A stretch of 33,074 nt of DNA from positions 1 through 33,074 of the forward strand of contig JAOZVJ010000005.1 of the NCBI GenBank assembly GCA_029938215.1. Direction: 5' to 3'. Positions 15,707 to 29,589 of the stretch are shown piece after piece. This DNA comes from Arcobacteraceae bacterium. Its GTDB lineage: Bacteria > Campylobacterota > Campylobacteria > Campylobacterales > Arcobacteraceae. Positions within the stretch are counted from its first letter, which is position 1, and the number at the start of each line of letters is the position of its first letter. The notes beneath the pieces are model-generated. The model saw only the letters and a list, made by a program, of their open reading frames with translations. It was not told where the DNA came from and made no database searches. A program made the translations under genes and the position numbers.

Positions 15707-15946
15707 ATGATAGTTGATTTTATTGCTAATTATGCAAAATTAATAGTAAATAATCCGCAAGACATTAAAGTAGATTTAGAAATGCTTAATGATGATTTTG
15801 CACAAATTACTATCAATGCTAACAATGCTGATATTGGCAAGCTTATTGGAAAAAACGGTAATATGATTAATGCTATTAAAACCATGGCAAATGGTTGCAA
15901 AGCTAAAGATGGTATATCATACAAACTTCAAGTGCAAGCTATTTAA
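15707..15946 (+). CDS. khpA: KH-domain RNA-binding protein KhpA
   Basis: 79 aa with single KH domain (DIGKLIGKNGNMINAIKTMANG), located between rpsP and rimM. Confidence 0.88.
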   Translation: MIVDFIANYAKLIVNNPQDIKVDLEMLNDDFAQITINANNADIGKLIGKNGNMINAIKTMANGCKAKDGISYKLQVQAI

Positions 15947-16476
15947 TGTCAAATGAGGTTTTTGTAGCTAAAATTGGTAAAACAGTTGGCCTTAATGGTC
16001 AGCTGAAACTTCATATTGATTCAGATTTTCCAGAGCAATTTTCAAAAAATTCACAATTTAATACAAATAAAAATACTACTTTAACTATTGAAAATTTTAA
16101 TAGCAAAAATAATGTAGTAAAATTTAAAAATATTGATACTATAGATGATGCTAAAAAAATTATCAATCAACAGCTTTTTACAACTTTAAAAGACACTAAA
16201 AATAATTGCAAATTAGATAATGGACAATTTTTTTGGTTTGACCTTGTTGGTTGTAATATAATTGAAAATAATAAGATTTTGGGAAAGATAGTCGAAGTTC
16301 AAAGATACCCACAAAATGATTATTTTGAAATAGAAACTTCCAAAAAATTAATTGATGAAAAAAATTTATCCAAGATTTTTTTAATACCATACATTAAAGA
16401 ATATATCTTAAATGTTGATATAAAAAATAAATCTATTTTGGTTCAAGGTGCTTTTGATATTTTAGAAGCTAGTTAG
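15946..16476 (+). CDS. rimM: 16S rRNA processing protein RimM
   Basis: VAKIGKTVGLNGQLKLHIDSDFPEQF, FFWFDLVGCNIIEN, FLIPYIKEYILNVDIKNKSILV; conserved position after khpA. Confidence 0.9.
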   Translation: MSNEVFVAKIGKTVGLNGQLKLHIDSDFPEQFSKNSQFNTNKNTTLTIENFNSKNNVVKFKNIDTIDDAKKIINQQLFTTLKDTKNNCKLDNGQFFWFDLVGCNIIENNKILGKIVEVQRYPQNDYFEIETSKKLIDEKNLSKIFLIPYIKEYILNVDIKNKSILVQGAFDILEAS

Positions 16477-16484
16477 AGCAACTT

Positions 16485-18032
16485 TTAAAAACTACATTTT
16501 TTTTCAAAATCTTCTTTTGATAAATTTAACTTTTTAGTATCCTTAATAAGTTTTTCATCTAATGTTTTTAAGATATTATCGCGATCTTCTTTATTTAAAA
16601 ATGGACCTATAAATACCTGTATTCTTCCTTCTTTATTTTTGCATATTGATAAATTAGCATTTGCTTTTTTTGCTTTTTTAATAAAATCTTTGAAATTTTT
16701 TAATTTTAATGTAGGAATTTGTATAAATTTATTTAAATCTTTTTGTTTTTTATCATTTTTATAAGAAATTTTTTTTGATATACTTTTGACTAACGGCTCT
16801 TCTTTGTTTTTTTGTGCAAATTTTTCTAGCTTTAACTGTTTTTCTTTTTCAATAATTTTTCTTTTTTCTATAATATCATCTTCTAAAATTTCATATTTGG
16901 TAAGTAAAGATAATTTTCTATTAAGTCGGTTCATATTTATTTGAGACATTTGAAAATTTATATGTTTCTTTTTTTGAACTGATTTTATTTTAACAAGCTT
17001 GTTTATTTTCTCTTTTGTTGCATTTGTATCTTTTTGTTTTTCTATAACTTCTGGCTCAAACGCTCCCATAAAATACAAGAGTATCCCTATAAATATAACA
17101 ACACCAAATAAAGAACCTACAAGTATAATGATTTTTTTTAATTTTGCTTGCTTCTTTTCATCATCTGATAAATTCTCATCAACTTTTAAAAAGTTTAATT
17201 TTTTTAAGAAAGAAAAAGAAATTTTTAGCTTTTTTTTACCGCCTTTTTCTTTTTCTTCTTCATTGTTTTTATCATCATCTTTTTCTAAATTTTCATTTTC
17301 CGTTGTAGTTTCGTTTGTTTTTTCTTCTAATTCCTCTTTATCATCTACTTTGGCATCATTTGCATCTAAATTGTCTTCTATCTCTGCCTCTACTTCATCC
17401 TCATTTTCATTTTCGGTTTCATCTATTTTCGCATCTTCCTCTTTACTATTTTCATCAGAATTTTCATCTTCTGTTTCTGATTCTTCTTCATTTACTTTTT
17501 CAGCTTGTGAAATTTCACTTGCTGCTATAGTTTCTATATATGGCATTATCTCTTCATCAAAAGCAATATAAAATAAAATTTCTTTTTCTTCTAAAATTAT
17601 TGCGAATTTAAAAAGATTTTCAGTTGATGCATAATCTTTACCATCAACCTGTTCATTTCCTGCTAATGAAAATTGAACTGTTCCTAAATCTTTAAAATCA
17701 GAACTATTTATTGAAGTTGATAAACCGCCACATATATTTGAAACAACTTCATTAAGAGCATCAACTGTTTCATTATTTATATCTTCGCTTGGTTCAGCAT
17801 TTTCGCCCATCATTAGATTTAAAATATATGTAGCACTTAATGCTGGTATAAAAAATGACCAATTTGAAGTAATTTTTTCAAATTTAAAGGTAGTGCTTAC
17901 TTTTACACATTGACCTTGCAAATTTGTTTCATGGGCTTTTGTTGTTTTATCTAAGTTTGTTTTTTTTGCAAGAAGGGACTCTAAAGTACCACTTAAACCA
18001 TTTTGAATTAATTCGGATAAATCAGATGCCAT
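16485..18032 (-). CDS. Putative FliY-N/CheC-like domain protein with acidic linker, single TM helix and C-terminal SPOR-like domain
   Basis: N-term FIPALSATYILNLMMGENAEPSEDINNETVDALNEVVSNICGGLSTSI resembles FliY N-terminal/CheC-like domains; about 110-aa Glu/Asp-rich linker; TM IIILVGSLFGVVIFIGILLYFMGAF; C-term FIQIPTLKLKNFKDFIKKAKKANANLSICKNKEGRIQVFIGPFLNKEDRDNIL resembles SPOR. Confidence 0.65.
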   Translation of the reverse strand: MASDLSELIQNGLSGTLESLLAKKTNLDKTTKAHETNLQGQCVKVSTTFKFEKITSNWSFFIPALSATYILNLMMGENAEPSEDINNETVDALNEVVSNICGGLSTSINSSDFKDLGTVQFSLAGNEQVDGKDYASTENLFKFAIILEEKEILFYIAFDEEIMPYIETIAASEISQAEKVNEEESETEDENSDENSKEEDAKIDETENENEDEVEAEIEDNLDANDAKVDDKEELEEKTNETTTENENLEKDDDKNNEEEKEKGGKKKLKISFSFLKKLNFLKVDENLSDDEKKQAKLKKIIILVGSLFGVVIFIGILLYFMGAFEPEVIEKQKDTNATKEKINKLVKIKSVQKKKHINFQMSQINMNRLNRKLSLLTKYEILEDDIIEKRKIIEKEKQLKLEKFAQKNKEEPLVKSISKKISYKNDKKQKDLNKFIQIPTLKLKNFKDFIKKAKKANANLSICKNKEGRIQVFIGPFLNKEDRDNILKTLDEKLIKDTKKLNLSKEDFEKKCSF

Positions 18033-18453
18033 TTTGTGCCTTTGTTTTTCTAGCTTCCTTTTGTCTAGCTAAAATTTTATCTCTATTTTTTCTATAATAC
18101 TCTTTTCTATAAATCTTTAAATCTTCTTTTTTCTTTTCTCTGTAAGACTTATCATACTCCAATCTTTTTTCTTTATTTTCCAAATAGTACTGTTGTTTTT
18201 TCTGCCTATATTCTTTTAGTTTATTTGTGATTATATCTTTTCTGTCATCAACATAAGTTTTTTGTTTTTTTATTATCTCTTTAATTTTAGCACTAAAATT
18301 ACCAGAAAACAACTCATTCTCATAATCAATCGCTTCCACTTTAGAAGTATCAGATGACTTCTCAAGTTTTTTCTTAAGATAATAAGCTTTTTTCTTTTTT
18401 TTATGAGCTATTATATTAGCTTTACGAATTTTTTTTAATTCTTCTAAATCCAT
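18022..18453 (-). CDS. Lys/Tyr-rich highly basic helical protein of unknown function
   Basis: 143-aa ORF in operon context (14 nt downstream of flgG, overlapping the next gene): YYLENKEKRLEYDKSYREKKKEDLKIYRKEYYRKNRDKILARQKEARK. Confidence 0.65.
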   Translation of the reverse strand: MDLEELKKIRKANIIAHKKKKKAYYLKKKLEKSSDTSKVEAIDYENELFSGNFSAKIKEIIKKQKTYVDDRKDIITNKLKEYRQKKQQYYLENKEKRLEYDKSYREKKKEDLKIYRKEYYRKNRDKILARQKEARKTKAQNGI

Positions 18454-18466
18454 CTAGGTTAATTTA

Positions 18467-19240
18467 TTACCTTTTTAGTTGATTAACTTGTCCCAACATT
18501 GTATCTGTTGTTGTTATTGATTTTGAATTTGCTTCATAAGCTCTTTGTGCTGTAATCAAATCCACCATCTCATTTACTAATTTTACATTTGATGATTCAA
18601 GCATGCCCTGTCTAAGTTTTACATTTGCATTTTCTATTTCGACAGGATCTCCAGAAGTTTCAGTAATTGTATACATACTGTTGCCCGCGGGAGACAAACC
18701 AGCAGAATTTGCAAAATTAAATACCTGTATAGGTCCAGCTTGAGTCAATGTACCATCTAGCATATAAGATATCAATCCATTCTGTGATATTGATATATCA
18801 GTAGCACCTGTTTCTATTGTGATACCTTGAGCCAAAGGATATCCTTGTGCGTTTACCAATGCCCCTTCACTATCTACTTTAAAAGCACCATTTCTTTCAT
18901 ATGCCGTATCTCCATTTGGAAGAGTTATTTCAAAAAAACCATTTCCTTCAATTGCTAAATCCAAAGGATTTCCAGTTTGTTTTAGACTTCCTTGTAAAAA
19001 GTTTTTTTGAATACCAGCAATTCTAACTCCCAAACCCACATTAATACCAGTAGGATTTTCTGTAGATTCTGAAGTTGAACCTGCTGTAAAATTTAAAGAC
19101 TCATACATTAAGTCTTGAAATTCTGCACGATCCTGTTTAAAAGCGGTTGTATTAACATTCGCTATATTATTTGAAGTAACATCAATCTGATGCTGTTGAG
19201 CATTCATTCCTGCTGCTGCTGTATATAAACCTCTGATCAT
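18467..19240 (-). CDS. flgG: Flagellar basal-body distal rod protein FlgG
   Basis: MIRGLYTAAAGMNAQQHQIDVTSNNIANVNTTAFKQDRAEFQDLMYE...NPLDLAIEGNGFFEI...SSNVKLVNEMVDLITAQRAYEANSKSI. Confidence 0.95.
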   Translation of the reverse strand: MIRGLYTAAAGMNAQQHQIDVTSNNIANVNTTAFKQDRAEFQDLMYESLNFTAGSTSESTENPTGINVGLGVRIAGIQKNFLQGSLKQTGNPLDLAIEGNGFFEITLPNGDTAYERNGAFKVDSEGALVNAQGYPLAQGITIETGATDISISQNGLISYMLDGTLTQAGPIQVFNFANSAGLSPAGNSMYTITETSGDPVEIENANVKLRQGMLESSNVKLVNEMVDLITAQRAYEANSKSITTTDTMLGQVNQLKR

Positions 19241-28202: not shown

Positions 28203-28448
28203 ATGAATTTAATACAACTAGGTTCACAAATAAAAAAACTACGCAAAGAAAAAAAATGGTCTCAAGGAGATTTAGAAAAATACTCTAATATTACAAAACG
28301 AACTATATCTAAAATAGAAAATGGCTTTATTGATGAAGTTGGTATTAAAAAAGTAGAATTAATCCTTGATCTTCTAGGATATGAATTTAGCATAAGATTA
28401 AAAAGACAACCAAAAACATTGGAGGAGTTACAAGATGAAAGAAGATAA
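28203..28448 (+). CDS. hipB: HipB-like HTH (XRE family) antitoxin
   Basis: LGSQIKKLRKEKKWSQGDLEKYSNITKRTISKIENG; overlaps the hipA ORF by 14 bp. Confidence 0.85.
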   Translation: MNLIQLGSQIKKLRKEKKWSQGDLEKYSNITKRTISKIENGFIDEVGIKKVELILDLLGYEFSIRLKRQPKTLEELQDERR

Positions 28449-29589
28449 ATTAAAAGTATTTATCAATCAAACTCATAGTGGTACTTTAACTTACGAAAAC
28501 GATAAATATATATTTAATTATCTTGAAAATTCATTAGATGTAGTGTCTTTAACGATGCCCATACGAAGTCAAAGCTGGGTAGATAAAAAACTTCATCCAA
28601 TATTTCAGATGAATTTACCTGAAGGTGCTTTAAAAGATGCTATTAAAAATAGTTTTGCAAAGATTAAAAAAATGGATGATATAGGATTTTTAGAACTTAT
28701 TGGTCCATATATGCTAGGAAGAGTTAAATTTAATGAATTAAAAGTTGATGAAGACAATCTAAAATTAGAAAATATTTTACACAACACTAAAGAAAATTTA
28801 TTTGATGAATTATTAATAAAATTTGCTATTCGTTCAGGCGTATCTGGAATTCAACCAAAATTATTATTATCAGCTCATAATAAAACAACCATGAAGTTTG
28901 AACACTTTATCGTTAAGTCTTGGAATGATGAATATCCACAGTTAGCACTAAATGAGTATTTTTGTATGAGAGCTATTAAAAATGCAAATCTAGAAACACC
29001 AGAGTTTTATTTATCAGATGATCTAAGTATGTTTATTATAAAAAGATTTGATATAAAAGATGATAATAGTTATTTAGGTTTTGAAGATATGTGTGTACTA
29101 ACGGCACGAGGAACTGATGGAAAATATGATGGAAGTTATGAGGAGTGTATAAGAGTTATAAAAGATATTATAGCTCCACAATATAAAAAAGAAACATTAA
29201 AAACTTTTTTCAAAGCAATTGTTATGAATCATCTTCTTCAAAATGGAGATGGTCATCTAAAAAACTACGGCATACTTTATGACAAAAACCATAATGATGC
29301 ATATTTAGCTCCTATTTATGATGTGATTACTACAACTGTTTATATAAAAAATGATATTCCTGCACTAAGAATATCAGATGCAAAATTATGGTGGAAAGAA
29401 AAAACTTATAAATCATTTGCAAAACAAAGCTGTGGACTTTCAAATAAAGAATATGAACAAATATTAACTGAATGTAAAGACTCTATTATTAAAACAAAAA
29501 AAGAAATAATTGAATTTGAAAATAAAAATAAAAATATTAAAAAGTTTTTATTAGAACTGCATAATATTTGGGTTGAAAAGATTTTATAA
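28435..29589 (+). CDS. hipA: HipA-like toxin kinase
   Basis: GVSGIQPKLLL (Gly-rich/Ser loop), FIVKSW, FIIKRFD, NHLLQNGDGHLKNYGILYD catalytic motif, APIYDVITT. Confidence 0.93.
   Translation: MKEDKLKVFINQTHSGTLTYENDKYIFNYLENSLDVVSLTMPIRSQSWVDKKLHPIFQMNLPEGALKDAIKNSFAKIKKMDDIGFLELIGPYMLGRVKFNELKVDEDNLKLENILHNTKENLFDELLIKFAIRSGVSGIQPKLLLSAHNKTTMKFEHFIVKSWNDEYPQLALNEYFCMRAIKNANLETPEFYLSDDLSMFIIKRFDIKDDNSYLGFEDMCVLTARGTDGKYDGSYEECIRVIKDIIAPQYKKETLKTFFKAIVMNHLLQNGDGHLKNYGILYDKNHNDAYLAPIYDVITTTVYIKNDIPALRISDAKLWWKEKTYKSFAKQSCGLSNKEYEQILTECKDSIIKTKKEIIEFENKNKNIKKFLLELHNIWVEKIL

Follow-up and report, generated by a model that had tools for sequence, protein, structure and literature searches.

The window, by which we mean the whole stretch of 33,074 nucleotides analysed here, carries an open reading frame of 515 aa at positions 16485-18032 of its minus strand, with no internal stop in the translation. 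Within an overlapping operon headed by flgG it comes third, and it converges with the gene at 15946-16476, which we take to be rimM and which is found at the same spot in many relatives. The gap between flgG and the second gene, coding for a 143-aa protein, is 13 nt, and this second gene overlaps the 515-aa frame by 11 nt. The divergent neighbours are flagellar and chemotaxis genes: cheY with the adjoining cheZ, flgF, flgB, fliF, fliG, fliH, fliN, flgD and flgE. The same cluster also holds, between two flgE-like genes, a toxin-antitoxin-type pair formed by a HipB-like HTH gene and a hipA gene (28203-29589, plus strand). The features of the operon are as follows.

18467-19240, minus strand: flgG, first gene of the operon flgG-143aa-fusion (TIGR02488, E=6.6e-89, above cut-off; relatives keep the same order)
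18022-18453, minus strand: Lys/Tyr/Arg-rich protein of 143 aa, second gene of the operon, upstream of the fusion (net charge +22)
16485-18032, minus strand: fused gene, 515 aa, with a FliY-N/CheC-like domain, acidic linker, transmembrane (TM) helix, periplasmic linker and SPOR-like domain
17508-18032, minus strand: FliY-N/CheC-like domain, predicted cytoplasmic, residues 1-175, paralogue of FliY-N
17238-17501, minus strand: acidic linker, residues 178-265 (49% Asp/Glu, pI about 4)
17133-17243, minus strand: Lys-rich segment preceding the membrane helix, residues 264-300, read from the sequence
17076-17132, minus strand: single TM helix, residues 301-319 (hydropathy maximum 3.07, next-best window 1.29)
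16884-16958, minus strand: family-specific motif F..(S/D)IN..RLNKKL.LLTKYEI, predicted periplasmic, residues about 359-383 (invariant or near-invariant alignment columns)
16521-16733, minus strand: SPOR-like domain, residues 434-504 (beta-alpha-beta-beta-alpha-beta; profile homology to SPOR)
16641-16643, minus strand: Cys464, invariant in 49/49 members
16494-16496, minus strand: Cys513, invariant in 49/49 members

The preliminary description had read the N-terminus as FliY/CheC-like, and our comparisons bear this out. Residues 8-193 match the NCBIfam FliY model (PRK08432) with E=1.2e-15, below its curated cut-off, and a match to Pfam CheX (E=0.0036) is likewise below cut-off. The AF2 model of the domain, with 42 family sequences as input, has a mean pLDDT of 92.4, and every one of the 38 PDB matches at E<=0.001 is a structure of FliY, CheX, CheC or FliM, the best being T. 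maritima FliY 4hyn (E=1.6e-9). Besides this N-terminal CheC-like fold, the fusion shares with FliY the starting sequence MASDLS, and it has in common with the Arcobacteraceae FliYs the residues D4, P63, M74, D91-A92, E95, G102, T106, N109 and F158. Unlike FliY, it is predicted to be anchored in the membrane, it has lost the GG loop in 10/10 copies, and it ends in a SPOR-like domain instead of the SpoA/FliN domain, Pfam giving no FliMN_C match.

It also exists in addition to FliY, contrary to the earlier proposal that the SpoA half of FliY had been replaced. An intact FliY of 289 aa, FliN-like C-terminus included, lies elsewhere in this genome, on contig G000:C57, and is 41% identical to fusion residues 1-183; the fusion is therefore a second gene made from a copy of FliY-N and, judging from sequence, its N-domain is a paralogue added alongside FliY and no replacement of it. 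In a maximum likelihood tree, ten fused domains group together as a single clade (100/96) next to 45 Arcobacteraceae FliYs, with the FliYs of other families outside; the fused domains branch beside, not inside, the Arcobacteraceae FliYs (91/90), the nested alternative not being rejected (p-AU 0.085). The stand-alone FliN that had been pointed out in the cluster is indeed there, but it is normal, because Campylobacter and Helicobacter likewise make FliN as well as FliY (PMC6946799).

We aligned the active site of the N-domain through 4hyn and 3iic. The catalytic E-x2-N reads E95-x2-S98 in the fused protein, the Asn being Ser or Thr in 10/10 fused copies (Thr in four), and the site-1 Asn is kept in only one of the ten; in the phosphatase helix, Glu95 and Asp91 do not vary. 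The fusion is thus like the CheC/CheX/FliY CheY-P phosphatases in fold and in the Glu of the active-site helix, and unlike them in the Asn of E-x2-N. Ser also occupies this position in 44/45 Arcobacteraceae FliYs and in 12/12 FliYs of other families. Position 77, in the GGxG-type GG loop before the second helix, is Gly in 44/45 Arcobacteraceae and 10/12 outgroup FliYs, and in none of the ten fused copies. The GG loop of FliM contacts FliG. With the phosphatase Asn absent and the GG loop lost, neither CheY-P hydrolysis nor a FliM-like contact with FliG is expected, and an altered docking role would be the simple reading left for the N-domain. C-ring assembly in H. pylori does not require the FliY N-domain (PMC8809382); this weakens the case for docking on the C-ring, and would leave a copy free to acquire another role.

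The acidic linker and the single TM helix proposed earlier were both recovered. Positive charge is greater in the 15 residues before the TM helix than in the 15 after it in 47/48 homologues, in agreement with the positive-inside rule, and the N-terminus is accordingly predicted to lie in the cytoplasm. After the membrane helix, AF2 predicts helices at residues 367-377 and 385-409. The acidic tail is present in nearly all family members; in some it has grown by repeats, of the MDELMNLD type in L058 (G016) and L053 (G051), and as a long Glu-Pro run in L033 (G049).

The C-terminus had been described as a periplasmic SPOR-like domain, and profile comparison supports this homology. SPOR is not listed in a Pfam search of the whole fused protein; on the isolated segment PF05036 gives E=0.029 and 15.1 bits, short of the cut-off of 21, and it is matched at all in 1/49 members. 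By contrast, hhalign against SPOR domains picked by Pfam alone gave 91% (E=1.1e-6), against 0.1% for unrelated controls, and a second SPOR set, itself found with the family profile, gave 95.5% (E=1.5e-8). Across the phylum, the C-domain profile also matches the Pfam-confirmed SPOR domains of a D-Ala-D-Ala carboxypeptidase, of NlpC/P60 enzymes and of bitopic SPOR proteins. In the AF2 model, residues 434-504 follow the order beta-alpha-beta-beta-alpha-beta, an RNP-type fold, with an added C-terminal helix, the pLDDT of the block being about 83-93 towards the C-terminus. Searched by sequence against the PDB, the C-domain profile returned chance matches only; Foldseek retrieved ferredoxin-like folds, SPOR structures being absent from the top 50, and was left out of the evidence for SPOR as unspecific. 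From these profile matches, the C-domain is best described as a divergent homologue of SPOR.

Its divergence extends to the ligand site. The glycan-contacting Gln of SPOR is Q270 in RlpA (PMC6895207); a Gln stands at the ligand position in the window's copy (Gln438), but among 49 members the position is Gln in eight and Asn in 24. The domain may hold on to the wall or to another motor protein; with Gln kept in few members, glycan binding is uncertain and wall binding has possibly been lost. Two Cys, and no more, follow the TM helix in each of the 48 homologues checked, and both are invariant; they lie in beta2 (Cys464) and in the C-terminal helix (Cys513); their invariance and predicted periplasmic location make a Cys464-Cys513 disulfide likely. 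They occupy other positions than the FtsN pair, C252/C312 (PMC6895207). The same genome holds a separate, ordinary bitopic SPOR protein (G000:C81; L120, 1689-2723), so the flagellar SPOR-like gene is an extra, diverged member; the ordinary gene lies between what we take to be glyA and trpE, an order that recurs in several other Campylobacterales families.

A single-protein scan of genome contigs found nothing, and loci were instead gathered with a profile of the 143-aa partner. The family with the TM helix and SPOR-like C-terminus occurs in 95 of 104 Arcobacteraceae genomes. Among the nine genomes without the membrane protein, seven have no flgG match, and the assemblies of the other two, G022 and G029, are fragmented. 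Outside the Arcobacteraceae we obtained only weak SPOR-type cross-matches to the C-terminal family, strong scores being confined to this bacterial family. The order flgG-143aa-target is conserved in the relatives' loci examined, and in 46 of 47 named loci the target is the next gene downstream of the one for the 143-aa protein, the contig of the remaining one ending early. We propose this gene order, the TM helix, the post-TM motif and the Cys pair as the marks of a flgG-linked family; the fused protein has all of them. In most genomes, including named Malaciobacter, Aliarcobacter and Poseidonibacter strains, the only form is a short one, made up of acidic tail, TM helix and SPOR-like domain, without the FliY domain. 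The preliminary description was right about the fusion, but the core of the gene is a TM/SPOR-like protein that in the Arcobacteraceae mostly lacks the FliY domain.

The full fusion, far from being restricted to one strain, was found in 11 genomes belonging to one clade of uncultured lineages, spread over three genera (two in g1, six in g7 and three in g12). A profile of the N-domain split the matches in the 104 genomes neatly: 11 fused matches with E<=1e-54 in frames of 435-527 aa, all at the membrane-protein locus, and full-length FliYs in frames of about 279-312 aa. FliY accompanies the fusion in 10/11 genomes (in one as a contig-end fragment), and was not found in G036, a fragmented assembly. 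The fused copies are 31-63% identical to the window's copy in the N-domain and have no internal stops. As the genome studied here is a 145-contig draft assembly, the fusion might have been an artefact, a misassembly or frameshift joining two genes, but the chance of this is negligible; we rejected misassembly because the same fusion, at the same locus, is common to 11 independent assemblies. Of the fused genomes, eight could be placed in an EF-G tree, where they group in a single clade (100/99) with a g8 genome that has no flgG. Where a genome of g1, g7, g12 or g8 is without the gene, flgG is missing as well (G025, G126 and four g8 genomes), except for the fragmented G029; in G002 the contig of the membrane-protein locus is cut off before it reaches the N-domain. 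Considering the FliY-N tree together with the EF-G species tree, a single gain of the FliY-N fusion within the clade would be the simplest history; ancestral presence of the fusion followed by losses is possible. The fused gene is a variant assembled from two already-known kinds of part, and the architecture is real, conserved in one clade and apparently undescribed. In the open-licence literature we found neither the fusion nor any flgG-linked SPOR protein described before, nor any experiment on the fused gene in any Arcobacter.

The 143-aa partner, probably helical, is conserved at 51-78% identity across Arcobacteraceae, with 28 invariant columns in 48 sequences of this family, and was found only with Arcobacteraceae flagellar loci. 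It had no match outside the Arcobacteraceae in a 200-genome sample of the phylum, and no usable match in Pfam or NCBIfam. Charge co-variation between the acidic tail and this basic partner, as a sign of binding, showed no correlation (rho -0.12, p 0.43).

The reading that we favour, and hold on balance to be probable, is that the protein is an Arcobacteraceae-specific inner-membrane tether or scaffold dedicated to the flagellum, to which one clade added a FliY-N docking module once. The flgG operon of these bacteria would encode a hitherto undescribed, flagellum-dedicated family of single-pass inner-membrane proteins. In its common form, the protein would have an acidic tail in the cytoplasm, a single TM helix, then a helical stretch in the periplasm and a divergent SPOR-like domain, probably stapled by a disulfide. 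Presumably located at the motor or the pole, it would probably keep a structure of the flagellum or the pole aligned with the cell wall, or with a ring of the motor in the periplasm. In the g1/g7/g12 clade, the CheC-like half of a duplicated fliY would have been joined once to the cytoplasmic end, and the membrane-anchored module would most likely dock on partners in the C-ring or export apparatus, rather than dephosphorylate CheY-P. A more pointed version, that FliY-N forms the cytoplasmic end of a wall-anchored tether touching the C-ring or export gate and so couples the switch or export apparatus to the wall, seems to us quite doubtful.

The main rival, possible if not the reading we would choose, is a polar landmark: the SPOR-like domain would read septal, amidase-processed peptidoglycan, and after division the protein would stay at the new pole and mark the site of the flagellum, its acidic tail and FliY-N recruiting early flagellar parts. 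Functionally it would then be an analogue of HubP/FimV, built in the opposite domain order. Indeed, the SPOR homology and the acidic tail of nearly all members give it the parts list of HubP/FimV, namely a wall-type periplasmic domain, a TM helix and a long acidic cytoplasmic region (PMC12918733), and the SPOR protein RgsS is required for reliable selection of the new pole in S. meliloti (PMC7822825). However, Pfam finds neither LysM nor the C-terminal FimV TPR domain in the fused protein, no sequence relation with HubP/FimV was found, the SPOR ligand Gln is not conserved, and the gene sits among rod and hook genes, not beside a known pole-placement gene. The poor conservation of this Gln also weakens the view, unlikely in our opinion, that this is an ordinary division or cell-wall SPOR protein of the DamX/FtsN kind that lies in a flagellar cluster by chance. 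The fusion does resemble FtsN, DamX, DedD and the Campylobacterales glyA-SPOR-trpE protein in its predicted N-in topology, single TM helix, flexible periplasmic linker and C-terminal SPOR-like fold, and in DamX, too, SPOR is preceded by a large domain in the cytoplasm and a long linker in the periplasm (PMC7642682). It differs from these bitopic proteins in its flagellar operon, its co-occurrence with flagella and its post-TM family motif; moreover, the gene is missing together with flgG from seven genomes that must still divide, and it is confined to Arcobacteraceae at strong scores, whereas the other SPOR gene recurs across the order Campylobacterales.

That the CheC-like domain acts at the pole or septum as a tethered CheY-P phosphatase or CheY-P sink, a role implied when CheY-P chemistry was first suggested for it, we consider very unlikely. 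Its fold is truly that of CheC/CheX/FliY and Glu95 and Asp91 are invariant, but the substituted catalytic Asn, the near-general loss of the site-1 Asn and the presence of a CheZ next to cheY all speak against it, as does the lack of phosphatase active sites in the FliY of the related Campylobacter and Helicobacter (PMC6946799).

Going back to the tether or scaffold that we favour, its interest lies in the bacteria that carry it. Two reports (PMC9321776, PMC5758724) present Arcobacter as an outlier among Campylobacterota, with reshuffled flagellar genes, the usual flagellar regulators missing and a motor built differently, and the former reports FlgPQ/VWX as missing from Arcobacter. The SPOR-like membrane protein and its 143-aa partner would be two conserved, family-specific candidates for replacing the missing scaffold. 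Like the scaffold proteins FlgP/Q, PflA-D and FcpMNO of the same phylum, the membrane protein may count as a flagellum-linked envelope accessory, and in the sections of PMC9321776 and PMC11870540 concerned with these proteins none is described with FliY-N or SPOR domains, unlike the fusion. The fusion clade offers an example of a rotor domain that, after being duplicated, lost its GG-loop signature and, as predicted, moved to the membrane. Were the tether to reach the switch or export gate through FliY-N, it would represent a new kind of motor accessory, be it a clutch, a brake or an anchor for assembly, in a lineage with an atypical motor scaffold.

Three of the sequences surveyed deserve separate mention. 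G100, a complete single-contig genome, has the short-form gene and no match to the FliY N-domain, unlike nearly all its flagellated relatives, and its FliY may be lost or strongly diverged. In L056 (G031), around 16670-17938, the short-form gene is apparently broken by in-frame stops (one or two TAA), the flagellar neighbours being otherwise complete. Lastly, L174 (CAMCYD010000002.1) is titled 'Helicobacter pylori PMSS1' and holds an Arcobacteraceae flagellar locus with the fusion, so the title looks wrong.
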